Assembly (NCBI GenBank): GCA_021731815.1
Contig: JAKFWO010000036.1
Location: 1 to 64,000, forward strand
DNA length: 64,000 nt
Reading direction: 5' to 3'
Source: Hyphomonadaceae bacterium
Lineage (GTDB): Bacteria > Pseudomonadota > Alphaproteobacteria > Caulobacterales > Aquidulcibacteraceae
Part shown: in pieces, positions 2,933 through 23,760 of the stretch
Numbering within the stretch: position 1 is the stretch's first letter
Layout: every line of letters begins with the position of its first letter
Program-made: the position numbers and the translations under genes
The notes under the pieces: generated by a model
What the model saw: only the letters and a program-made list of their open reading frames with translations
Databases searched by the model: none
What the model was told of the DNA's origin: nothing

Positions 2933-5329
2933 ATGACCGAGCCCAAACCAGGTGAGCCCGATTACTTTGAATTGTCCCCGGCACCGGGGGCGGTGCTGCA
3001 ATTGGACTGGACGATTGTGCGCGCCAACCGGGCGCTGCGCGAGGCCTCGGGGTTCAAGGCGGGGGATCGCTTCGTCGATTTGCTTCCGCCTTTGGCGCGG
3101 CGGGAATTTCTCGATCAGGTCAGCGATGCCCTGTGTTCGCGCAATGAAGTGGCCATCCCGGCGCGCGTCGAATTGCTGGGGCGCGAGCGTCTGTGGCGGG
3201 TCTCGCTGCGCATTGTCGGGCTGGGCATGGTAGCCGCCTGCCAGGACGAGACCGAATATCTCGCACTTCAGGAACGCGACCATGGCCGCCGCGAGAATGA
3301 CGACATCCTCCAGCGTCTGGCGGGGATCGGCCCCTGGCGGGTGCGCGAGGGTGGGGAGATCGTTGAGATTTCCGAAGGGTTTCGGCAGATCATTCCCCGC
3401 TGGGACCATCTCATCGCACCCGATTGTGCCGATGGCTATTTCGCCGTCCCGATCGATGAAATCCCCGAATTGCAGACGATCATTTTCCGGACCCTGCAAG
3501 GCAGCAGCGACGGCCATCTCGAGGAACGCTTTACCCTGAAGGCAGAATTCGGCGTGACCCGTCACATAAGGGTGGTTGCCCACAAAATTCAGGGCCTGTC
3601 GCGCGGTACCGGTCCGGTCGAGGGCGTGGCAATTGATGAGACCGATATCACCCATGCGCGCGATGCGGCGGAAGCCAATCGGGAAAAGCTCGATTTCGTT
3701 CTGAAACTCGCCCGCGCGACGGTCTGGGAATATAATGTTGTTGATCGCGACCTCATTCTGAGCGGTGCAGGTCCGCTCGCCCATGCCTTCGAGGCCGACC
3801 AGAACCGCAAATCGGTGGACTGGTTCTGGAAACAGATCCTGCCCGAGGAACTTGAATCCGTGCGCGCCGCCTGGACGGCCCATGTTTCGAGCGGCGAGCC
3901 CTTCGTCCAGGAACACCGGATCCGCGACCGCCATGACGAAATCCGCTGGGTATTGTCGATCGTCCATGCCCATCGCGACCGGGACGGGGTGTTGTCGCGC
4001 GTCGCCGGTTTCACCATGGACATCACGGCCCGCAAGAATATCGAGCTGAAGCTCGATGAGGCCAAACGCGAGGCACTGGCGGCCGCCGAGGCCAAGGGGC
4101 GGTTTCTCGCCAATATGAGCCACGAGATCCGGACCCCGCTCAACGGGGTGATCGGGGTAATCGGCGCGCTGGCCAGAACATCCCTGTCGGGCGCGCAGCT
4201 CGAAATGGTCAGGCTGGTTTTGTCGTCGGGCGTGACGCTCGACCGGTTGCTGACCGACATTCTGGATTTTTCAAAAATCGACGAAGGCCGTCTTCAATTG
4301 TCAGAGGCAAACTTCGATCTGCGCGACGCAATCGAGACTGCGGCCGATGTCATGCGGGCGCGGGCCGAGGAAAAAAATCTCGGTTTTTCGGTGGAATATG
4401 CGCCCGATGCGCAGGGCTGGTTCCGCGGCGATGCGGTGCGGCTCAAGCAGATCATTTCCAATCTTGCCTCCAATGCCGTGAAATTCACGCATGCGGGCGA
4501 GGTGAAAGTAATGGTCGAAATCGTGGCCGGAACATCGCCTGCGGCATCTGCCACCTTGCGCCTGAGCGTCAGAGATACCGGCATTGGCTTCGATGCGGAA
4601 ACCGCTGCCCGCCTGTTCCAGCGCTTCGAACAGGCCGATCCCTCCATCACGCGCGAATTCGGTGGTTCGGGACTTGGCCTGTCAATCGTCAAGGGGCTGG
4701 TCGAATTGATGGGCGGGCGGATCGAGGCCAGCTCCCATCCCGGCGAGGGCAGCCGTTTTCAGGTCGAGCTGCCCCTGGCGCGAATGTCTGTTGCCGGGGA
4801 ACCAGGAATATCCGCGGTGGCGACGATTCCCGACCGGGATCGCGAATCCGAAACCGAAATTTCCGCAGTTGAGGCCGGGCCCTCTGTTGAGATCCAGCCC
4901 CCGGATGACGCCCAGCCCGCCGGGCAACGCATCCAGGTCCTGCTCGCCGAGGATCATCCGGTCAATCGCAAGGTGGTGAGCCTCATCCTCGCATATCATC
5001 CCGTTGACCTCACCGAGGTCGTCAATGGGGCCGAGGCGGTGGAGGCCTTCCGGACGGGCCGTTTCGACCTCATCCTCATGGACATGCAGATGCCCGTGAT
5101 GGACGGGCTGACTGCGACCGCCCGGATCAGGGCGATGGAAAAATCCATGCAGCGGACGCCGCTCCCCATCATCATGCTCACAGCCAATGCCATGCCCGAA
5201 CACCGGGCCGAGGCGAGGGCGGCGGGAGCCGACCATTACATTGCCAAGCCGGTGACTGCAGAAGGGCTGATAGCCGGGATCGAGGCCGCGCTCAATCCCC
5301 CCGACGATGCGCGGTCGAGCGCTGCCTGA
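2933..5329 (+). CDS. PAS-domain hybrid sensor histidine kinase/response regulator
   Basis: A 798-residue cytoplasmic-looking kinase with no obvious membrane segment. Residues 1 to about 370 contain PAS-like sensor modules. A dimerisation/phosphoacceptor helix follows, with His397 in SHEIRTPLNG. An ATPase domain comes next, with an N-box near residue 508, DTGIGF near 548 and GGSGLGL near 577. After a proline-rich linker the receiver domain runs from about 670, with phosphoacceptor Asp717 in LMDMQMPVMDG. All catalytic residues are present, so both autophosphorylation and internal phosphotransfer are expected. No partner regulator or output gene is adjacent; it stands alone between an enoyl-CoA hydratase and dnaX. 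The ligand is unknown. Confidence 0.9.
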   Translation: MTEPKPGEPDYFELSPAPGAVLQLDWTIVRANRALREASGFKAGDRFVDLLPPLARREFLDQVSDALCSRNEVAIPARVELLGRERLWRVSLRIVGLGMVAACQDETEYLALQERDHGRRENDDILQRLAGIGPWRVREGGEIVEISEGFRQIIPRWDHLIAPDCADGYFAVPIDEIPELQTIIFRTLQGSSDGHLEERFTLKAEFGVTRHIRVVAHKIQGLSRGTGPVEGVAIDETDITHARDAAEANREKLDFVLKLARATVWEYNVVDRDLILSGAGPLAHAFEADQNRKSVDWFWKQILPEELESVRAAWTAHVSSGEPFVQEHRIRDRHDEIRWVLSIVHAHRDRDGVLSRVAGFTMDITARKNIELKLDEAKREALAAAEAKGRFLANMSHEIRTPLNGVIGVIGALARTSLSGAQLEMVRLVLSSGVTLDRLLTDILDFSKIDEGRLQLSEANFDLRDAIETAADVMRARAEEKNLGFSVEYAPDAQGWFRGDAVRLKQIISNLASNAVKFTHAGEVKVMVEIVAGTSPAASATLRLSVRDTGIGFDAETAARLFQRFEQADPSITREFGGSGLGLSIVKGLVELMGGRIEASSHPGEGSRFQVELPLARMSVAGEPGISAVATIPDRDRESETEISAVEAGPSVEIQPPDDAQPAGQRIQVLLAEDHPVNRKVVSLILAYHPVDLTEVVNGAEAVEAFRTGRFDLILMDMQMPVMDGLTATARIRAMEKSMQRTPLPIIMLTANAMPEHRAEARAAGADHYIAKPVTAEGLIAGIEAALNPPDDARSSAA

Positions 5330-5410
5330 ACGCCCCGGGGTCATTGCGACCCGCGCTTCCGTGGCCTGTGGGTGATTGCGCAAGCGGGGGTGCATCGGCT
5401 AACATGAGAC

Positions 5411-7588
5411 ATGCCTGATTTTCCGCCCGATGCCGCCCTTGCCGGGGATTTTTCCACGGATCCACTGTTTCCGCAGGCCGGATTCCAGTCCGGGCTGCAG
5501 GCAAGGCCCGGCACTGCCGGGGACCAAAGCGGGACCTATCAGGTGCTCGCCCGCAAATATCGGCCCCGGCGCTTTGAGGATCTGATTGGCCAGGAAGCGA
5601 TGGTCCGCACCCTCGCCAATTCCTTCAAATCGGGGCGGATCGCGCATGCCTTCATGCTGACCGGCGTGCGGGGCGTGGGCAAAACCACCACGGCACGCCT
5701 GCTGGCGCGCGCGCTGACCTATGAAAGCGCAACCATCAGGGCACCGCATCTGGCGCTCGACCCGCCGGGGATCCATTGCGCGTCCATCATTGCCGGCGCG
5801 CATCCCGACATTCTGGAAATGGATGCGGCCTCCCATACCGGCGTGGCCAATATGCGCGATATCCTCGAGGGCTCGGCCTTTGCGCCCGCCGAATTGCGCA
5901 AGAAAATCTATATCATCGACGAAGTTCACATGCTGTCGACCGCCGCTTTCAACAGCCTGTTGAAGACGCTGGAAGAGCCCCCCGCCCATGTGGCCTTCAT
6001 TTTTGCGACCACGGAAATCCGCAAGGTTCCGGTCACCATCCTGTCGCGCTGCCAGCGTTTCGATTTGCGGCGCGTGCCCGCCCCGATGCTCGCCGCCCAT
6101 CTGGGCACCATCGCGGGGATCGAGGGGGCAGTGGTCGAGCCCGATGCGCTCAATTTGCTGGCGCGTGCGGCCGAGGGCAGCGTGCGCGACGGGCTGTCGC
6201 TGCTCGATCAGGCGATCGTACATGCCGAGGATGGCAGCGTTGTCGGTGTCGAACGTGTGCGTGAAATGCTCGGCCTGGCCGATCGCGGGCGCCTGATCGA
6301 TCTGTTCCGGCTCATCCTGACCGATAGCATCGCAAATGCGCTGACCGAACTCGCGGATCTCTACGCGCTGGGGGCGGAACCCGGACAGATCCTGCGTGAT
6401 TTGCTCGATATCTGCCATGCGGCGTCGAAATTGCGGGCGCTGGGACCGGCTGCGCTCGACGCCACGGACGCCCCGGCCGAGCGCAAGGCGCAGCTCCTCG
6501 CCCTGGCCGGAGGGATCAGCGCGGGAACCCTGTCCCGGCTGTGGCAGATCCTGCTCAAGGGAATGGAGGAATGCCAGCGCGCACCCGATGCGCTGGCCGC
6601 GGCCGAAATGTGCCTGATACGGCTGGCGGCCGCCGCGCATCTGCCCGGGCCGGAGGAGGCCGCCGCATTGCTGCGCCGTGCGGCAGAAGGCCAGGGGGGA
6701 TCCGGGCCCGCCGCCGATCACGGCGGCGGTTCGGGTCCGGGGGCTAAATACGACGCGCCGGAGCGCGCATCGCAGGCTGTCCGCGCGCCGGATTCCCGAT
6801 CGGGTGGCCGGGAGCCCGGAACGGTCGGTGTCGATCAGACCTCTGTCCAGCCCGTTCCTTCACCCGACACGCGTCTGCCCGCAAACCGGCGTGACATTCG
6901 GTCCGAAACCGCTTCACCTGAAAAACCAAAGTCCCCTTCCGCGATTCGCGCTTCGGGCGGAGAAAATCCATCTCCCGCACCATCCCCGCCAGATCCGGTT
7001 GACCGGCGCAAGGTCTCCGAAATCCGGCGCGGGGAAGGCAGGCCCGAATCTTCCGCCCATGACATCGGATTCATCAATCTGGTGTCTCTGCTGGAACAGG
7101 CGCGCGAGCTGACTTTGGCCGTTGAGCTGGAAAATTTTGCGCTGGGCGGCAAGGTCAATGGGCTCGATATTTCTTTCGGTCTTGCGCCGGGGGCCCCGCG
7201 TGATCTCTTGCGGCGGCTGGCGTCGGCGCTCGAGGAAGCGACAGGCGAGACCTGGCGGATCAGTCTCGATCCACACGCCACAGGCGAAACGCTGGCGGCC
7301 GCCAGAATCCGTGAGCGCGAGGAAGAGATCGCCCGGATCAAGGCGCATCCGGCCATTGCGGCCATGCTCGGGCAGTTTCCGGAACTTGCGATTGTCGGTA
7401 TCACAAGGCCTGAGATTCCGGTGTCCGAGGCTGCCGCCATTGCGCCCGACGAGGCTGAGGATTCAGACGACAGCGAGGACCCGCACCGCGCCGGGGACAA
7501 TTTCTCTCCTCAGGATCAATCCATCGGGTCTGATTCATCGGCCGAAATCATCTCGCTGCGCGATCGGCGCAAAACCGCCAAAGGCTGA
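5411..7588 (+). CDS. dnaX: DNA polymerase III subunits gamma/tau
   Basis: The clamp-loader ATPase of the replicative polymerase, 725 residues. The AAA+ domain has a Walker A (GVRGVGKTTTARLL), a DEVHMLS Walker B, and the SRC sensor in LSRCQRF. A proline- and serine-rich linker (about residues 430-550) leads to the tau C-terminal domain. The usual four-cysteine zinc module between Walker A and Walker B is reduced to a single Cys in GIHCASI, as I recall for several alphaproteobacterial DnaX proteins. About 45 N-terminal residues precede the conserved YQVLARKYRP start, so translation could begin later than 5411. I saw no clear slippery site for a gamma form. Confidence 0.93.
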   Translation: MPDFPPDAALAGDFSTDPLFPQAGFQSGLQARPGTAGDQSGTYQVLARKYRPRRFEDLIGQEAMVRTLANSFKSGRIAHAFMLTGVRGVGKTTTARLLARALTYESATIRAPHLALDPPGIHCASIIAGAHPDILEMDAASHTGVANMRDILEGSAFAPAELRKKIYIIDEVHMLSTAAFNSLLKTLEEPPAHVAFIFATTEIRKVPVTILSRCQRFDLRRVPAPMLAAHLGTIAGIEGAVVEPDALNLLARAAEGSVRDGLSLLDQAIVHAEDGSVVGVERVREMLGLADRGRLIDLFRLILTDSIANALTELADLYALGAEPGQILRDLLDICHAASKLRALGPAALDATDAPAERKAQLLALAGGISAGTLSRLWQILLKGMEECQRAPDALAAAEMCLIRLAAAAHLPGPEEAAALLRRAAEGQGGSGPAADHGGGSGPGAKYDAPERASQAVRAPDSRSGGREPGTVGVDQTSVQPVPSPDTRLPANRRDIRSETASPEKPKSPSAIRASGGENPSPAPSPPDPVDRRKVSEIRRGEGRPESSAHDIGFINLVSLLEQARELTLAVELENFALGGKVNGLDISFGLAPGAPRDLLRRLASALEEATGETWRISLDPHATGETLAAARIREREEEIARIKAHPAIAAMLGQFPELAIVGITRPEIPVSEAAAIAPDEAEDSDDSEDPHRAGDNFSPQDQSIGSDSSAEIISLRDRRKTAKG

Positions 7589-15668: not shown

Positions 15669-16035
15669 ATGCCCGATCCTCGCCTTGTAATCGGGCCGGA
15701 ATTGTCCTGTACCGGACGGTCACGGGACGTCTTCAGCCCAATGCGGCGCAAAGCGGGGCTGTGGGGCCTGGCGCGATCCGATCCGCCATATTCCCTGCGC
15801 GGTTATGATCGCGCTCTTCCCGGCAAACCAATCCACTTCGACATCAAGAGGCTTGGTCGATTCCTTGTCTTTCGCCATTGGATCTCCTTCGATTGGACCC
15901 GAAGGAGTAACGCGCGTGGCTATCGTAACGGTGGAATATAGTGTGGCGGAGGGAATTCGTCACGTCGCATTGATGATGCCCCGGGCGGCTCCGTCAATCG
16001 GGTACAGCCCGACGAAAATGACGAATGTGGCGCGA
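15669..16035 (+). pseudogene. Remnant of an IS481-type transposase
   Basis: One reading frame shows RRKAGLWGLARSD and then DRALPGKPIHFDIKRLGR. The latter resembles the conserved IS481 segment around the first catalytic Asp (pattern IHxDxKxLGR). The frame is stopped by TAG at 15939. In the same register it continues with a degenerate IDDAPGG...PDE stretch that fits the second Asp region. No terminal inverted repeats or complete N- or C-terminal domains could be recognised. I read this as a decayed insertion sequence fragment, now non-coding, at the left edge of an accessory segment. The call rests on motif recognition, without an alignment. Confidence 0.55.
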
Positions 16036-16260: not shown

Positions 16261-16509
16261 TTGTAAGACAACTTGGTTTTTCAAGTTACCATTCTTACGA
16301 AAGTGATGTATACCTAATTATTTTCGAATAAAAATCACGTAACTCAAAGAAAATAATTCGTACATTTCGTTATTTATAATTGTAATGTTATTGGATTATT
16401 TGAGTCGAGATCCAGCAACGAATCTGGAGATAGTTTTTTGCTTGACAGCGTCAGGGAATGCATTATTGCTATCTATCGGATATCCAGAGGTCGCAATTCA
16501 TGTGGGGGC
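16261..16509. promoter_or_regulatory. Very AT-rich leader of the CHAT operon
   Basis: The roughly 180 bases from 16261 to 16440 are strikingly A/T-rich in an otherwise GC-rich window, with several A and T runs. This is where a promoter for the rightward CHAT operon should lie and where a xenogeneic silencer could bind. I could not fix a specific -35/-10 pair. A GGAG at 16425-16428 precedes an alternative TTG start at 16438 for the CHAT gene. Confidence 0.5.
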
Positions 16510-19500
16510 ATGCGCATGATGCCGGATTGGCAAGCCAGGGCGATAAAAGGCAAGAAATCGCGTGAGTCGAAAAGGAGCTTCGCAATTCTTGCTTTGGTGA
16601 TTGCGGTAATGGCTCCCGCCAGCGTTTCGCAAGTCCCCGTGGGTGCAGTCACTGCGGGATTTCGAATAATCCCGGGCAGCGACCAGGGAATTGCTCGCCC
16701 CGACGCGGCGTCAGATTCGATCATTATCAAGAGTTCAGATACCAGAGAGATGCGCCCGGGAACTTGCGCGGCACTGGCGGTCCAGAGTCCACTTTTTCAG
16801 GAATTTCAACGCCTTAATCCTCTGCTTCGCCCGCTTTCTCTCGACGACAAGCTGACGGCTTTTGCATTTTCGGGTGCCCGTGCCGCGCTGGGCCGACTTC
16901 AGTCCCTGAAAAACCCCGGTGGCGACAAAAAGCCGGATGGAGAGGCGGCGGCACTGGCTGTTTTGCAGCAAGGCCTGGATAACGCCCTGGTCTGGATCAA
17001 GGAACGTGAAGACGAATGGGTGCTCCAGGATAAGGACGGTTCGGAATTGAACTCCACCCCGTCGTCGGTGGGCTCTCAATCGGGTCCTGGTAAAATTGAA
17101 AACCACGTTTTGACGCGTCGGGAAGTGATCAGGGCGGGGCTTGTCTCGCCCTCACGCCGCGAGATCGAGATAATGGTTGATCTTGGCATTGCTCAATATC
17201 TGGTGGCCTCGGGCAACGCACCTGTAGCTGCCGAGCGCGCGAATCAAATTCGCGATCGCCTGATGCGCGAAAGCCCCGATTCGCCTCTGTTGCTGGCCGT
17301 CGACCTTTTGCTGGTAGATGCCTATCGATTGGATCATGAAACTGCGCTGGCTCTGGATGCCTCTGAATCATTCGATGAAAACCTGGCACGCTTCCCCCGG
17401 CTTTTCGGGAAGATAAATCACGCTGAAATCAAGACTGCGGCATTTCGTGCCACAATCTATCGTGAGCGGAAGCAGAGCGGTCTTGGTTTACCTGAAGGGC
17501 GGAGTGAGGAAGAAGAATTAAAGCGCGTTACAGAGCTCTATTCGGGTGGCGGAAATTTATTGCACCTCGTTTTTCCAGGCGGCGCAGGATTGATTACGTA
17601 TGATCGACCGCCTGCTCCGGAATCTGTGCTGCGGACATTTGCGCCGGCAAGTAGCGCATCTATCCTGACGATTGGCCAGGCTGTCCTGTTGGCGGTTCAA
17701 ACGGATTCCGTGTTTGGAGCATCTGTCCCGTCCCCGCCTGCCAAAAGCCTCGCCGAATTGGCCCGCTGGACCCTGGAATGCGGAGAACTTGGTGCACAGG
17801 CTTTTCTGGCCGGAGATTTTGCGCTGGCATCGGCTGCCGGAAACACCGCATTTCGTCATCTTGATGGTCCTATGGCCAAAGCACTGGTCAGCCTTGGTGT
17901 GTCGGAAGGAGCAGAAGGTTATGAGGAGCTCTTCGAGGACCTACAGGACTGGTATCTTTCGCGACCAGGAAAGACCTATGATCATCTGAACATTTCGCTC
18001 ATAGGCCTTGGTTCAATCGCTCTTCCGGTATTGTCGGGGGATACCGGACCGTTTCTGGGGGCCATCCGTCGGGTACTCGGCGATGACGTTATCAGGCATG
18101 CGTGGAAAGAGACCCGCGGGTTTGTCGCAGAAGAAGTGATCGTCGACACAGGGCTGACGATGCAGGACATTGACCCTGCTGCCGATCAGGCGATCGCGAC
18201 CGCCTCTGCCGCGCGCGATGCCATATTGTCGCTGCTGGAGCCTTCGCGGCAGAGCCGTAATTCGGCGGCATTGTATTTCGAACTGGACCGTTTCCGGACG
18301 CGTTTGTCGCGATTGATCAATATGACTTCCACTTTGTTTGACAGGGTTTTTCAGTATCAAGGCAAACAGACGGATGACCCGGACGAAATAAATGAAATAA
18401 AGGCCATTCGACGAGAAATACCATTTTTGCGCAAGGCAACAATCCAGTATGTCGACATTTTGTTTGCCAATGGCGAGGCAATGCTTGCCGCCCGGTCCGG
18501 AGAGAAGGGGCGACTGAACGCGGCAATACAGAAAAGCCAGCGATTGGCACGTAGTTTTGCGACGGCCTTGGGCGGGTCGGTTACCAGCACTGATCCGGGC
18601 ATGATCGTCAAACAGGCCGCACTCGTCGCGACCAAATACGGCCTGGAACTTTCTCGACGTGTAGAAAACGGCCTGGCATCAGAAACGGCGGCACTGGCCA
18701 AGGATCAAATTGATGGCATCAAATTTTCTGTCGATTTGGCCGTTGGTTTCCTGATACCGCTGCCTTACAGCAATTCTCCGGAGGCGCGCGCTATTGCGCA
18801 AGACTACAAGGACGGTATTCGCTCCATTATGGCGTCGCTTGATCCCGACTGGGCTGTCGACTTGAGAGACAGTTTTGAGCCGCCGGATCTGTCTGATCAG
18901 GGTTCATTTTCTGATTTCGCTTATACTTCTTTGACATCAATATATAGTCAGGGGATCGAAATCTTTCTGGCACGAGGTTATTGGGCACTGAGTGAACTGA
19001 ATAATATTGGAGCGAAGGAGGAAGTCGCATTTCTGCTCGAGGGATTACAGGCTGTTACTGAAGGCGTTTCAGAATGGGGTGATGCCAGCTCATCATTCTA
19101 CACAGCTCTGGGCGTTCTCGACGATGCGGTCTTCTTGTCGCTGATCCAAATTGGGAGCCAGTTTCAGCGTCCGGTCATAACGGAGACTGCTTTGTCCCTT
19201 TGGGTTGCAGCAAAACGGGCGGGGAAATCGACCAATGCGAACCAGGACACGCAGGACTTTCGCGCGGATCGCAACGCTTTCGCGATTCAGGCCTGGGTGG
19301 TCGCACAACGAATCATGTCCGGTCAGGCCACGGGAAAAAATGCTGATCTGCTTCTCAATTCTCTGGATTTCGCAAATCGCAGTGCCGCGGGCGTGGATTT
19401 CAGTATCCAACTGGAGATGCAGGCCGCGCCCAAGGAAGTTCGCGATGCCTATCAGCGATGGAGGCGCTTGTCTCTGGACCTTGAAGCCGATGGGGATGCC

Positions 19501-20841
19501 CGTCGCGCCAGTGCACAACAAGCCTTTCAACTGGGCCGCGCTCTTTCCGAATGGAGACCCGTTACGGGCGCAACAGCGTCCACCGTCAGTGATGCTTACC
19601 GAAACCTGATCATTGCTGCGCAGAACTCGAACTACGGGCTCCCGCAATTTCGGACCACCAATTTTGCTGAGTTACAAGCTGCCCTCGATGACCGCGAGGT
19701 TCTCATTACCGGGATGGTCTATGCCAGCGAATTGCTGGCAGTAGCCATCAGGCGAGGAAAACCGATTCGCGTCGCAAGGGTAGACCGTTCGTTCGCGGAC
19801 CTGACGGCGAAAAGCGCGCAATTGCGCGCTTCCATGACACTGTTGCCCGGTCGGGAAGCACCGGATTTCAATCTGGATGCGTCACGCGTACTCTATCAGT
19901 CCCTGTTTGCGTTTGCGGATGAGTTCATTGACGGAGCTGATCGGATAATCTGGTCACCGCCACGCGGACTCGACAATTTTCCTGTCGCGGTTCTCGATCG
20001 TGCTCAATCCGGTGATGTTCGATGGCTTGGTCTGGAGAAGGAGATCATGGTCGCCCCATCATTGGCATCATTAGTCAGTCTGCGGGCCGCCGTCCCATTC
20101 GTGTCCTCGGGAGCGATTGCAGCGGTCGGAGATGTACCATTCGTCGGCCCGACAACCAGTGGCCTTGGTTCCGGGAATGGCCTTCGTTCCGGAAAACGGC
20201 CCAACCACACAGCTGGCGCTCCCGGAATTTCCAATCTCAATTATTTTCTCGGTGCTACGCCCGCCGCGCGGCAAGCGTTGGCTTCGCTCAAAAGCCTTTT
20301 TCCGCAATCCGAACTTCTTGACGGGGCCAATGCCACCAGAATCAATGTTACTTCGAAATTGCGGGACCGGAGTTTTGACTATCTGCTTTTTCACACGCAT
20401 GGCGTGGGAGAGGATGTAACCCTTGCGTGCGGCTACGGTGTTGCGCAAGCGCTTGCACTCAATCACGACAATCCGGACAAACCTTGCAAGGAAGCGCTGC
20501 TCGGTGCCCAGGACGCCGCACAACTTGGGATCAGGGCAAGAGTTGTCATGCTCGGGGCCTGTAGCACGTCAGCAGCCCCCAATCGGCGGCTCGATCCTGT
20601 CGGAGGAATGGCTCGGGGGTTCTTGCTCGGCGGGGCACGGGCAGTGGTCAGTGCGCATCTGCCCGTATCAGACAGAGCTGCATCGTTGGTAGGGAAGGAA
20701 CTTGCGACAGGGCTGCTGACCCGGAAACGTGTGCCGACTGCGGCGCTTCGGGACGCGATGATGTTGGTCCGGTCTCAGCGGGGCATGTCTGGTCCTGCAT
20801 ATTGGGGACAGTTCGAAATCATTGGGGAAGGCGGACGATGA
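16510..20841 (+). CDS. Exported CHAT-domain (caspase-like) protein
   Basis: A large protein of 1443 residues if started at the ATG at 16510; an in-frame TTG at 16438 would add 24. A basic stretch (KGKKSRESKR) followed by a hydrophobic core at residues 24-37 looks like a Sec signal peptide ending near ASVSQ. Most of the protein is predicted helical and TPR-like, with no clear second domain. The C-terminal 170 residues form a CHAT domain. His1297 lies in LLFHTHG and Cys1351 in MLGACSTS, followed by the GGMARGFLLGGARAVVSAHLPVSD-type stretch and YWGQFEIIG, so the catalytic His-Cys dyad is intact. Family knowledge suggests a cysteine peptidase; an extracytoplasmic location is inferred. It is followed by CHASE2 and secreted-protein genes. 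Base composition is lower in GC than its neighbours, suggesting transfer. Confidence 0.85.
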   Translation: MRMMPDWQARAIKGKKSRESKRSFAILALVIAVMAPASVSQVPVGAVTAGFRIIPGSDQGIARPDAASDSIIIKSSDTREMRPGTCAALAVQSPLFQEFQRLNPLLRPLSLDDKLTAFAFSGARAALGRLQSLKNPGGDKKPDGEAAALAVLQQGLDNALVWIKEREDEWVLQDKDGSELNSTPSSVGSQSGPGKIENHVLTRREVIRAGLVSPSRREIEIMVDLGIAQYLVASGNAPVAAERANQIRDRLMRESPDSPLLLAVDLLLVDAYRLDHETALALDASESFDENLARFPRLFGKINHAEIKTAAFRATIYRERKQSGLGLPEGRSEEEELKRVTELYSGGGNLLHLVFPGGAGLITYDRPPAPESVLRTFAPASSASILTIGQAVLLAVQTDSVFGASVPSPPAKSLAELARWTLECGELGAQAFLAGDFALASAAGNTAFRHLDGPMAKALVSLGVSEGAEGYEELFEDLQDWYLSRPGKTYDHLNISLIGLGSIALPVLSGDTGPFLGAIRRVLGDDVIRHAWKETRGFVAEEVIVDTGLTMQDIDPAADQAIATASAARDAILSLLEPSRQSRNSAALYFELDRFRTRLSRLINMTSTLFDRVFQYQGKQTDDPDEINEIKAIRREIPFLRKATIQYVDILFANGEAMLAARSGEKGRLNAAIQKSQRLARSFATALGGSVTSTDPGMIVKQAALVATKYGLELSRRVENGLASETAALAKDQIDGIKFSVDLAVGFLIPLPYSNSPEARAIAQDYKDGIRSIMASLDPDWAVDLRDSFEPPDLSDQGSFSDFAYTSLTSIYSQGIEIFLARGYWALSELNNIGAKEEVAFLLEGLQAVTEGVSEWGDASSSFYTALGVLDDAVFLSLIQIGSQFQRPVITETALSLWVAAKRAGKSTNANQDTQDFRADRNAFAIQAWVVAQRIMSGQATGKNADLLLNSLDFANRSAAGVDFSIQLEMQAAPKEVRDAYQRWRRLSLDLEADGDARRASAQQAFQLGRALSEWRPVTGATASTVSDAYRNLIIAAQNSNYGLPQFRTTNFAELQAALDDREVLITGMVYASELLAVAIRRGKPIRVARVDRSFADLTAKSAQLRASMTLLPGREAPDFNLDASRVLYQSLFAFADEFIDGADRIIWSPPRGLDNFPVAVLDRAQSGDVRWLGLEKEIMVAPSLASLVSLRAAVPFVSSGAIAAVGDVPFVGPTTSGLGSGNGLRSGKRPNHTAGAPGISNLNYFLGATPAARQALASLKSLFPQSELLDGANATRINVTSKLRDRSFDYLLFHTHGVGEDVTLACGYGVAQALALNHDNPDKPCKEALLGAQDAAQLGIRARVVMLGACSTSAAPNRRLDPVGGMARGFLLGGARAVVSAHLPVSDRAASLVGKELATGLLTRKRVPTAALRDAMMLVRSQRGMSGPAYWGQFEIIGEGGR

Positions 20842-21039
20842 ATCCGGGCCTCGACAGGAATTCGGAACCGTGGCTGCGCTGCGGGCATCCAGACCAGAGC
20901 GCGTTCAGAAGAAGTGGAGTCCGGTTTTTCGTTAGAACGTGCTTTAAAATGCCCGGGGTCTGGGATGTAACGAATCTCAGGTCGCCTGAAATTCTGAAGG
21001 CGGGATCGATTGGATCATTCAGTACGTGAATTGCGCGGG

Positions 21040-22407
21040 ATGAAAGTCACGGCATTTCTGGCGGCCATCGGACTAGGGGCACTCGTTGGCGGGCTTGGTG
21101 TCTTGCTGCGAGATGAACCAGTACGCTTTGTGCTGATTGCCGAAATGGCTGCGGCAACAGAACGAAGTTTCCTTGAGGCCGTCGCGCGCAGGAAATTGCC
21201 GCCATCGCCAGTTTCCGGGGTGCTTTTGGTTGATCTTTCGCCGATGTCAGAAAATTCTCCTTCAGGGAATCGGTCGGCGCCCGCGAGTGGAACCGATCGC
21301 CGGACGATTGCAGCCGCGCTCGATACTCTCCGCCTGACTCCCCGCGCTCCATATTTGGTTGTTCTCGATGTGGATATCGCCCCGCCGGCCGATGCTTCGG
21401 ATTTCCGCACGGAAGAAGAGGCGCGTCTGTTGGAGTCGCTCGACGCCTGGAAGCGGGCGCCCGCAGCCGCACCGTTACTTCTGGTGCGAGGCGAAGGATG
21501 TGCCTCGCCACTAAATCATGCAACGCGTGTGCTTCCGTTGCCCTGGAAAAATTCCCCCTATGATTTGTTGGCAGCACCGACTGCCAGTGAGGCAACACGT
21601 ATCGCATGGACGTGTTCCTTGCCATTCTTGTCGCGGGACGGGGCGGCCCGTAGTTTCCATCCAATGGGATGTGCGTCGCGCAAGACCGACTGGGGCGAGC
21701 GGTTTCCTGTCCCATCGCCGGGAGAATGGGCCAAATCCGGCGTCCAGCAAGCCTCACCGACCGTCGATTTGACTGCGACCTATCGCAGATTGCTTCCGGC
21801 TTGGCGGAAGGCGTGCCTGCAGGAATCAGGGGGCGGCGCATTTCCGCGTCCTGTGCCGTTCCCTCCCCGGCAGTCGAACGAGACTGATGCGCCAATTGCT
21901 GTCAGTCAGTTGACGGAATTCGCCACAAGGGGCGAACTTGATTCCCGAGTGATTGTCCTTGGACGGTGGGACGCCCGATCAGGCGACCAATGGGTCGGTT
22001 CATCGGGGCAGTTGACGCCCGGTGCGCACCTTGTCGCTGACCATGTGTACGCCGCATTGAGATATCGCGGGCGAACAGAACTGGGCACATATTCGGGGAT
22101 TGGGCTGGTGTTCCTCCTCGGCGGCGGATTAGGTGCCTTATATTGGAGCGTTCGAACGGCCCGTCGGCCGCTGGTGAGGTGGCTTGGCAAGTGGCGAACA
22201 TTACGGGGGCTGCCAGTCTGGATCACCCGAATTGCATTCTCTCCTCCGGTCCTGGGCATAATATTGTCACTGACGACCACGATGGCCCTGGTCTTGGGTG
22301 CCGATCTCGTGGCACCCAATTCCTGGCCGGTGCTCTGGTATGTTTCGGTCGGGTGCGGCACCGCCCTCGCACTGCTTGATTTGGCTCTTACCGAGGAGAA
22401 AGACTGA
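21040..22407 (+). CDS. CHASE2-domain membrane protein without output domain
   Basis: About 455 residues from the ATG at 21040; a TTG at 21010 with a better ribosome binding site would add 10. An N-terminal membrane segment (residues 1-23) is followed by an extracytoplasmic CHASE2-like domain. Its typical landmarks are visible: VLLVDLS early, YLVVLDVDIAPP near residue 106, VIVLGRWD near 304 and LTPGAHLVADHVYAAL near 326. Three further hydrophobic segments (about 348-368, 395-415, 430-447) end the protein with no kinase, cyclase or other cytoplasmic domain. CHASE2 normally serves as the sensor of such enzymes. Here it may sense or anchor something for the neighbouring CHAT protein. It lies about 200 bp after the CHAT gene and 1 bp before the next gene. 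Confidence 0.75.
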   Translation: MKVTAFLAAIGLGALVGGLGVLLRDEPVRFVLIAEMAAATERSFLEAVARRKLPPSPVSGVLLVDLSPMSENSPSGNRSAPASGTDRRTIAAALDTLRLTPRAPYLVVLDVDIAPPADASDFRTEEEARLLESLDAWKRAPAAAPLLLVRGEGCASPLNHATRVLPLPWKNSPYDLLAAPTASEATRIAWTCSLPFLSRDGAARSFHPMGCASRKTDWGERFPVPSPGEWAKSGVQQASPTVDLTATYRRLLPAWRKACLQESGGGAFPRPVPFPPRQSNETDAPIAVSQLTEFATRGELDSRVIVLGRWDARSGDQWVGSSGQLTPGAHLVADHVYAALRYRGRTELGTYSGIGLVFLLGGGLGALYWSVRTARRPLVRWLGKWRTLRGLPVWITRIAFSPPVLGIILSLTTTMALVLGADLVAPNSWPVLWYVSVGCGTALALLDLALTEEKD

Positions 22408-22408
22408 A

Positions 22409-23323
22409 ATGCCGTCGATTTCCGAATACAGCTCCGCACTCTTCCTGATCACAGCTCTCCTCGGCGTGCCGGGGGTGGCAGATGCACAATGCCCCCCGGG
22501 CGAACGCTATGCGGCGGACATTGTGGAGCCCGGTTCAACCCCGACACCCCGGAAAACCGACATCTTTTCAGTAGAACGTTCCAACCGCACAATGAAATTC
22601 TTCAATGGCGGGGTCCGACTGTGCACCGGTGATCGCGTGATAGCGCAAGATCTGGAAGTCTCACTTGTGCTCGATTGGCGAAGGGAGCCGATCCGCATTC
22701 GGCCCAGATCTCATTTTATGATCCCCGGAAAGCGGCGGGTCATTTTCGACTTGCTTGCAGATGCCGCGCCTGTTTTCTTCGAGCGAGAAGTCAGTTCCAG
22801 CGGAACTGCAGGAACGCTTGGTTCTGGCTCCCGCGGACCGTCCGGTAACGAGGAAATGCGTTTTGCGATCGCCGGATTGCCAGGAGGAGATGCACGTTTG
22901 ACGGCATTGCCTACATTGTTTTCATTGCCAATTTCCCGCAAACGCACATCGAGGCTCGACGTGGTTATTGTCGATCCGGAGGGGCATGCCCATGAAATGA
23001 CCGCACCGGAAAACGATGACGGTGCTCCTCAGTTCGAAGATTTACCAAAAATACCAGGAGAGTGGAGAATATTTGCCGAGAGCGGCGTAGAACGCCTCAG
23101 CGGAAAATTTATTCTAGAAACTGCAAATACTTGGCCCGGCCCACGCGGCACGGAGGAGGATATTCTGATTTGGATTTGCGAAGATCCGGCGCGTAATGGC
23201 TTGCAAGGTGTTCATGAACTCAGGGAAGTCAATAGCGGGGTTGTTTCGCCATTCGCAAAATCAATTCTGGAATTTTGGTATACACCAGGATCGTCGTCCT
23301 TTTGCGCTGCAAGTCCGGGGTAA
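22409..23323 (+). CDS. Secreted protein of unknown function, third gene of the CHAT-CHASE2 unit
   Basis: A 304-residue protein with a clear signal peptide (hydrophobic core SALFLITALLGVPG, cleavage likely after ADA). A strong GAGGAGAAAG ribosome binding site precedes the ATG at 22409, which lies 1 bp after the CHASE2 stop. The N-terminal third (GGVRLCTGDRVIAQDLEVSLVL, then IRIRPRSHFMIPG) has a weak FecR-like beta-rich look, but I do not claim the family. The rest is a beta-rich region with no motif I recognise. Five cysteines could form disulfides in the periplasm. Tight spacing indicates cotranscription with CHASE2, so a role with the CHAT protein in the envelope is likely. Confidence 0.7.
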   Translation: MPSISEYSSALFLITALLGVPGVADAQCPPGERYAADIVEPGSTPTPRKTDIFSVERSNRTMKFFNGGVRLCTGDRVIAQDLEVSLVLDWRREPIRIRPRSHFMIPGKRRVIFDLLADAAPVFFEREVSSSGTAGTLGSGSRGPSGNEEMRFAIAGLPGGDARLTALPTLFSLPISRKRTSRLDVVIVDPEGHAHEMTAPENDDGAPQFEDLPKIPGEWRIFAESGVERLSGKFILETANTWPGPRGTEEDILIWICEDPARNGLQGVHELREVNSGVVSPFAKSILEFWYTPGSSSFCAASPG

Positions 23324-23760
23324 TCATCGCAGGTATCGTTCGTCCCGGGCCTGCCTTCTGGAATTTCCCCTGGTCTGTCGTCGAGCGGGCTCATTCTGAG
23401 AAGGAAGAGACGGAAAACGAACAATCGTTTCGCCGAAGCGCAGATTATCGGGGCGGATTATCGTAAACGAGGCTACCCAACCGAAATCCACTCATCCGCG
23501 CGAATCAATGAGTGAGTTTTGATTTTGGGCAGTATGAAAGTCTAAAAGTTTCAAGTTGATAGGCATTACGCTGGGTGTCAGCCGCTGGCTGCCCGACCAG
23601 AAACGGTCCCCCGCCTTGATGTATTGAATAATGATAATTTACCTTGGCAGGGGCGCCAAGGCTGCGGATTCTGGTGTAGAGGACGCGCAATACAGCGGCA
23701 ATGAACCGTAGCGCCCAGATCCGGCCCCGGAGCGCAGGGCCAAAACTGCCAGGAACCGGA
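23324..23760. other. Non-coding gap at the right edge of the accessory segment
   Basis: About 437 bases. I see no convincing gene: small open frames on both strands lack ribosome binding sites or recognisable products. Composition returns from AT-rich to GC-rich across this stretch. It presumably contains the end of the CHAT operon transcript and the promoter of the efflux pair. No clear terminator or attachment repeat was found. Confidence 0.5.

Follow-up and report, generated by a model that had tools for sequence, protein, structure and literature searches.

The window analysed here is a 64,000-nucleotide stretch of Hyphomonadaceae bacterium DNA, and the system in question is a trio of rightward genes encoding a CHAT (caspase-like) protein (P0001), a likely but not proven remote CHASE2 membrane protein (P0002), and a secreted protein of unknown family (P0003). 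CHAT genes and CHASE2 genes recur as neighbours far above chance in other genomes, supporting the functional link between the two that an earlier note, made from the sequence of this DNA, had put forward. The trio may represent a CHAT-CHASE2 envelope module that recurs in bacteria, here acquired horizontally, divergent, and reduced, in which the CHASE2 protein, the secreted protein, or both would control proteolysis by CHAT; we put the chances of this interpretation at about even. The arrangement is undescribed in the open-access literature searched, and the CHAT proteases of known mechanism found there are cytoplasmic. If true, the recurrent pairing of an exported CHAT with CHASE2 would suggest regulated proteolysis in the bacterial envelope.

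CHAT genes beside CHASE2 genes

In the stretches around 24 loci found with P0001 itself, a CHASE2 gene lay within 8 kb of the CHAT gene at seven (L017, L037, L043, L044, L046, L049, and L054). As 21 of the locus genomes, about 80 Mb in all, contained 27 CHASE2 genes, only about 0.15 of the 24 loci would be expected to have one nearby by chance. CHASE2 was also nearby at 11 of 80 loci obtained by scanning a genome collection with an alignment of module CHATs, a set biased towards the module and with some records repeated from the first set. The co-occurrence across genomes that the earlier note had set as its test for all three genes was thus found for CHAT and CHASE2, which recur as neighbours far above chance; P0003 has no similarity to the small secreted protein that is the third component in other genomes. 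The same trio was found in no close relative. Fusions of CHAT to CHASE2 in other bacteria, which the earlier note had mentioned, were not seen; the reported fusion is in Trichodesmium, where one protein joins a metacaspase, a different caspase relative, to CHASE2 (PMC3501461, PMC2853523). That protein shares with the window the coupling of a caspase-type protease to CHASE2, but it is a single fused polypeptide of another protease family, with its protease domain placed in the cytoplasm.

Elsewhere, the genes usually begin with a two-partner-secretion (TPS) exoprotein, followed by a CHAT of lipoprotein type, a small secreted protein, and finally a CHASE2-adenylate cyclase; a ShlB/FhaC transporter or a cyclic-nucleotide-binding protein often accompanies them. 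Clusters of this TPS-CHAT-secreted-CHASE2-cyclase type were present at L037, L043, L044, L046, L119, L123, L129, L136, L140, L141, L157, and L160. In many of them the stop codon of CHAT and the start codon of the small secreted protein gene overlap by 4 bases, and the CHASE2-cyclase gene follows. A long, repetitive, filamentous-haemagglutinin-like frame, assigned by eye, precedes CHAT in L043, L044, L046, and L037; the exoprotein frame of L043, which is truncated and was the sole one scanned, generated no Pfam match. The CHASE2-adenylate cyclases matched both CHASE2 and Guanylate_cyc in Pfam, a cyclic-nucleotide-binding protein gene was present in L037, L043, and L044, and a ShlB/FhaC transporter gene was located downstream in L119, L131, and L157. 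The CHAT proteins of several clusters bear lipoprotein-type signal sequences, and the CHAT side is therefore predicted to lie outside the cytoplasm. At L054, which belongs to the window's own family, a transporter and an exoprotein-like frame accompany CHAT and a divergent CHASE2 that lacks the cyclase. These larger clusters share with the window the close spacing of genes for an exported CHAT, a secreted protein, and a membrane protein with CHASE2; the cyclase domain, and in most of them the exoprotein and/or ShlB/FhaC, are theirs only and were not seen in the window. Likewise, tetratricopeptide repeats (TPRs), found by Pfam in the CHAT proteins scanned (L043 and L044), and a secreted protein of recognisable family were seen in the clusters and not in the window.

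As the CHASE2 of the larger relatives bears an adenylate cyclase, their readout is probably cAMP. With exoprotein, CHAT, secreted protein, CHASE2-cyclase, and cyclic-nucleotide-binding protein together, they resemble a complete and possibly undescribed surface-to-cAMP circuit, directly testable in hosts that can be cultured, Niveispirillum cyanobacteriorum for example. This recurrent system is more striking than the window member itself, and for both we infer all function. At L131 (3518-6211), small secreted protein, CHASE2, and cyclase occupy a single open frame of 897 aa, either a natural fusion or the result of a stop codon lost in assembly; unless it is a sequencing error, this frame links the small secreted protein with the CHASE2-cyclase. 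Beside the CHASE2-cyclase of L037, one gene (574-1995) combines mechanosensitive-channel and cyclic-nucleotide-binding domains and is a candidate cAMP-gated output. In Pseudosulfitobacter, CHAT genes on plasmids (L014, plasmid pDSM107133_h, and L016) have genes annotated as caspase-family and serine/trypsin-like proteases in their vicinity, a further association of CHAT.

Because CHAT adjoins a TPS exoprotein and/or a ShlB/FhaC transporter in most related clusters, a role in exoprotein handling would be natural, and CHAT could, instead of being a signalling protease, be exported to serve a surface protein as scaffold or maturation factor, with CHASE2 and the secreted protein merely anchoring or assembling CHAT. 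The very long N-terminal region of the CHAT protein fits a scaffold, whereas the intact catalytic dyad (see below), with catalysis probably retained, and the result that the TPS domain PF05860 was not found in the window's genome (G000), in a search run without a positive control and with ShlB not searched genome-wide, speak against one; on balance we consider the scaffold role unlikely.

The three genes of the window

The CHAT gene (16510..20841, + strand) was identified by its Pfam match and by conserved dyad columns. Its open frame spans 16438-20841 from a TTG codon (1,467 aa), or may start at ATG 16510 (about 1,443 aa). The PF12770 match (E 5e-30, 105 bits against a cut-off of 24) covers residues 1148-1463 and profile positions 3-288 of 289. 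With the TTG as residue 1, the dyad is H1321 and C1375; these correspond to columns H321 and C375 of alignment A1, both invariant, and are the same residues as the His1297 and Cys1351 counted from ATG 16510 in the earlier note, whose account of three rightward genes and an intact dyad is borne out. As the dyad is intact, catalysis is probably retained, and we take P0001 to be a putative protease. The protein consists of a signal sequence, an N-terminal region of about 1,000 aa, and the C-terminal CHAT domain with the His/Cys dyad. It begins with a charged N-terminus followed by AILALVIAVMAPASVSQ, and the hydrophobic segment is followed by APASVSQ, so that the start looks like a cleavable signal sequence; beyond this segment, no second strong membrane segment occurs in the first 1,200 residues. 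The export predicted from this layout agrees with the earlier note and with the lipoprotein-type signals of several homologues in the related clusters. Searches of 101 relatives, of 385 class genomes, and of a species-level genome collection found no close relative of P0001; the matches in relatives, class genomes, and plasmids covered the CHAT domain only, at about 25-36% identity, the best among those compared being Rhizobium BG4 L017 (102 bits over residues 999-1463).

The second gene (21040..22407, + strand; 465 aa if TTG 21010 is taken as the start) encodes P0002, which generated no match in Pfam or NCBIfam, CHASE2 included; nor did PF05226 match anything in G000. An alignment of CHASE2 proteins was built from genes beside CHAT homologues and seeded with Pfam-confirmed members. 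In profile-profile comparison (hhalign), P0002 matched this alignment with E 3e-4 over 250 columns (residues 68-377), clearly at the top of the 43 window frames, the best of the other 42 reaching E 0.011 over 36 columns. Hydrophobic segments at 15, 363, 417, and 441 predict one N-terminal helix and about three C-terminal helices around an extracytoplasmic domain, as in CHASE2. When 104 CHAT loci and the window were passed through a filter for topology and the CHASE2 tail pattern, the output consisted of CHASE2 proteins, P0002, and one false match. Alignment A3 and an AlphaFold model were also used in the assignment of P0002, which is thus likely, though not proven, to be the CHASE2 membrane protein described in the earlier note, recovered by profile-profile comparison though missed by Pfam. 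The C-terminus follows directly after the last membrane segment and no cyclase profile matched P0002, indicating a CHASE2 protein without a cytoplasmic output domain. Plasmid searches with P0002 found nothing.

The third gene (22409..23323, + strand) encodes the 304-aa P0003, recognised from its translation as a secreted protein by a signal-peptide-like N-terminus. It starts 1 bp past the CHASE2 stop, with GAGGAGAAAG just upstream; both the spacing and the signal-peptide-like start were as the earlier note had read them. P0003 generated no match in Pfam or NCBIfam, no homologue was present in 299 genomes of the order, and plasmid searches found nothing. Compared with the small secreted family of the related clusters, it gave an hhalign E of 0.43 and no HMM match, and its single-sequence AlphaFold model (pLDDT 32) was uninformative. 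A FecR identity of P0003 or of the small secreted family, suspected by eye, was rejected on profile comparison.

The three genes might also be accidental neighbours, with the second not encoding CHASE2 at all: genes 2 and 3 lack Pfam matches, about 200 bp separate CHAT from gene 2, and no close relative has the trio. Set against the placing of P0002 above the 42 other frames, the topology filter, and the recurrence of CHAT with CHASE2, we regard such a coincidence as very improbable.

Reduced forms and a candidate envelope pathway

No exoprotein, transporter, or cyclase was seen beside the window trio. Comparable sets occur in other genomes. In Bacterium MnTg02 (L127), CHAT is followed by a CHASE2 of 399 aa without cyclase and a small secreted protein, the gene order of the window, and no TPS genes adjoin them. 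On plasmid pRPC1 of Rhizobium sp. BG4 (L017), the order is CHASE2, secreted protein, CHAT. Both sets share with the window three genes without a cyclase or adjacent TPS genes, but they align with it over the CHAT domain only (about 28-32% identity), and L017 has another gene order and a broken CHASE2 frame. There, an apparent frameshift, which could be a sequencing error, splits the CHASE2 gene (4217-5550). In Rhodoferax (L102), a cyclase-less CHASE2 lies about 7 kb from CHAT. By eye, L102 (1-8257) holds, divergent from CHAT, sigma-factor-like and anti-sigma-factor-like frames, small lipoprotein-like frames, and then this CHASE2.

That the trio is a decaying, non-working remnant of a larger TPS-CHAT-CHASE2-cyclase cluster would fit its lack of TPS exoprotein, transporter, and cyclase, and the foreign composition and possible transposase fragment at the edge described below. 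The three frames are full length and free of internal stops, the dyad is intact, and forms without the cyclase exist in further genomes; decay is therefore rather improbable in our estimation. The trio is probably functional.

For a functional, reduced module, we favour the following pathway, at about even odds. P0002 would be an inner-membrane protein whose sensor domain faces the periplasm and which has no cytoplasmic output, and P0001 and P0003 would be exported to the side of that sensor. P0002, P0003, or both would sense an envelope or external cue and control the CHAT protease. Its target would be a protein of the periplasm or the cell surface, and this proteolysis would be the sole output left to the reduced form. 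Periplasmic proteolysis as output is likely but unproven, and we infer the physical interaction of the products, the direction from sensing to cleavage, the order of events, and the substrate. In the strongest form of this idea, which we hold only tentatively, caspase-like signalling would be all-extracytoplasmic, an effector-less CHASE2 sensor and a secreted cofactor switching an exported CHAT so that sensing leads directly to cleavage of envelope or surface proteins, and the larger TPS/cyclase clusters would represent the parent system.

Several observations weigh against reading the trio as a reduced CHAT-CHASE2 module. The set of 80 loci is biased towards the module because the query derived from module CHATs. 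The CHASE2 match of P0002 had an hhalign probability of only 40%, so that its identity is remote; its AlphaFold model, from an 11-sequence alignment, had a pLDDT of 49.5 with moderate confidence only in parts of the alpha/beta core, and no match was obtained in a fold search of the PDB. Residues 60-1130 of P0001 had no match among the open reading frames compared. Because P0003 and the N-terminal 1,000 residues of CHAT have no detectable relatives, P0003 equates with the third component of the clusters by position and signal peptide only. As the CHAT and CHASE2 genes of the window are about 200 bp apart, their co-transcription is not certain. Finally, a clade of orphan CHASE2 proteins including P0002 was considered and rejected, as these are not its closest matches. 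Since P0002 is not specifically close to the orphan CHASE2 proteins, the cyclase may have been lost on more than one occasion.

Described systems resemble the proposed module in part. The CHASE2 adenylate cyclases CyaD1, CyaD2, and CyaK of Sinorhizobium meliloti use CHASE2 as an extracellular sensor (PMC13001267), and the BiofilmReg operon of Burkholderia pairs a FecR/LysM protein with a CHASE2 histidine kinase, the ligands of CHASE2 domains being termed unknown (PMC5192318). Like the window, both tie an extracytoplasmic CHASE2 sensor to partners in the periplasm or outer membrane; they signal through a cyclase or kinase in the cytoplasm, whereas P0002 has no cytoplasmic domain and P0003 no FecR similarity. 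Craspase, the type III-E CRISPR complex of Cas7-11/gRAMP and the TPR-CHAT protein Csx29, shares with P0001 a long N-terminal region followed by a C-terminal CHAT protease, but it is a cytoplasmic RNA-guided complex without exported protein, CHASE2, or secreted partner, and no CRISPR array lies alongside the window genes. Searches of the open-access literature for a CHAT domain together with CHASE2, with two-partner secretion, or with FecR returned no paper, an absence that, for open access only, is weak evidence.

Composition and flanks of the segment

The earlier note had taken the lower GC and AT-rich leader of the segment to suggest horizontal transfer, and composition agrees. GC is 0.56 for CHAT, 0.60 for CHASE2, and 0.54 for the third gene, and 0.63-0.67 for the neighbours; GC3 is 0.56, 0.60, and 0.52, respectively, against 0.73-0.78. 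Judged from this, the trio is probably horizontally acquired. The AT-rich leader (16261..16509, + strand; GC 0.345), read from its sequence as a probable promoter region, has a TTGACA near 16440; a promoter scan of it found no more than in shuffled sequences, and it matched no RNA family in Rfam. No empty site could be read, because among the family genomes listed no contig was found to carry both flanking genes.

Horizontal acquisition by composition and patchy distribution would also suit an anti-phage or inter-bacterial conflict module in which CHAT is a suicide or effector protease triggered at the envelope, and other CHAT proteases do serve immunity, Craspase among them (PMC9729208, PMC10028731). 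The PADLOC matches were only marginal (BovA, E 4e-4 over 50 residues; SAVED_CHAT, E 7e-3), no CRISPR-like repeats occur in 13.5-25.5 kb, the neighbours are housekeeping and efflux genes rather than defence genes, and the related clusters hold secretion and cAMP-signalling genes, so a conflict role appears improbable, and slightly more so than decay. To its left, the trio is flanked by glnD-like and epimerase frames, and to its right by frames for HlyD and RND efflux. At the left edge, the transposase remnant of the earlier note finds weak support in a possible IS481-family fragment (15771..15863, − strand), 93 bases with 74.5% identity (E 1e-5) to an IS481 transposase gene carried by a plasmid of Rhizorhabdus.

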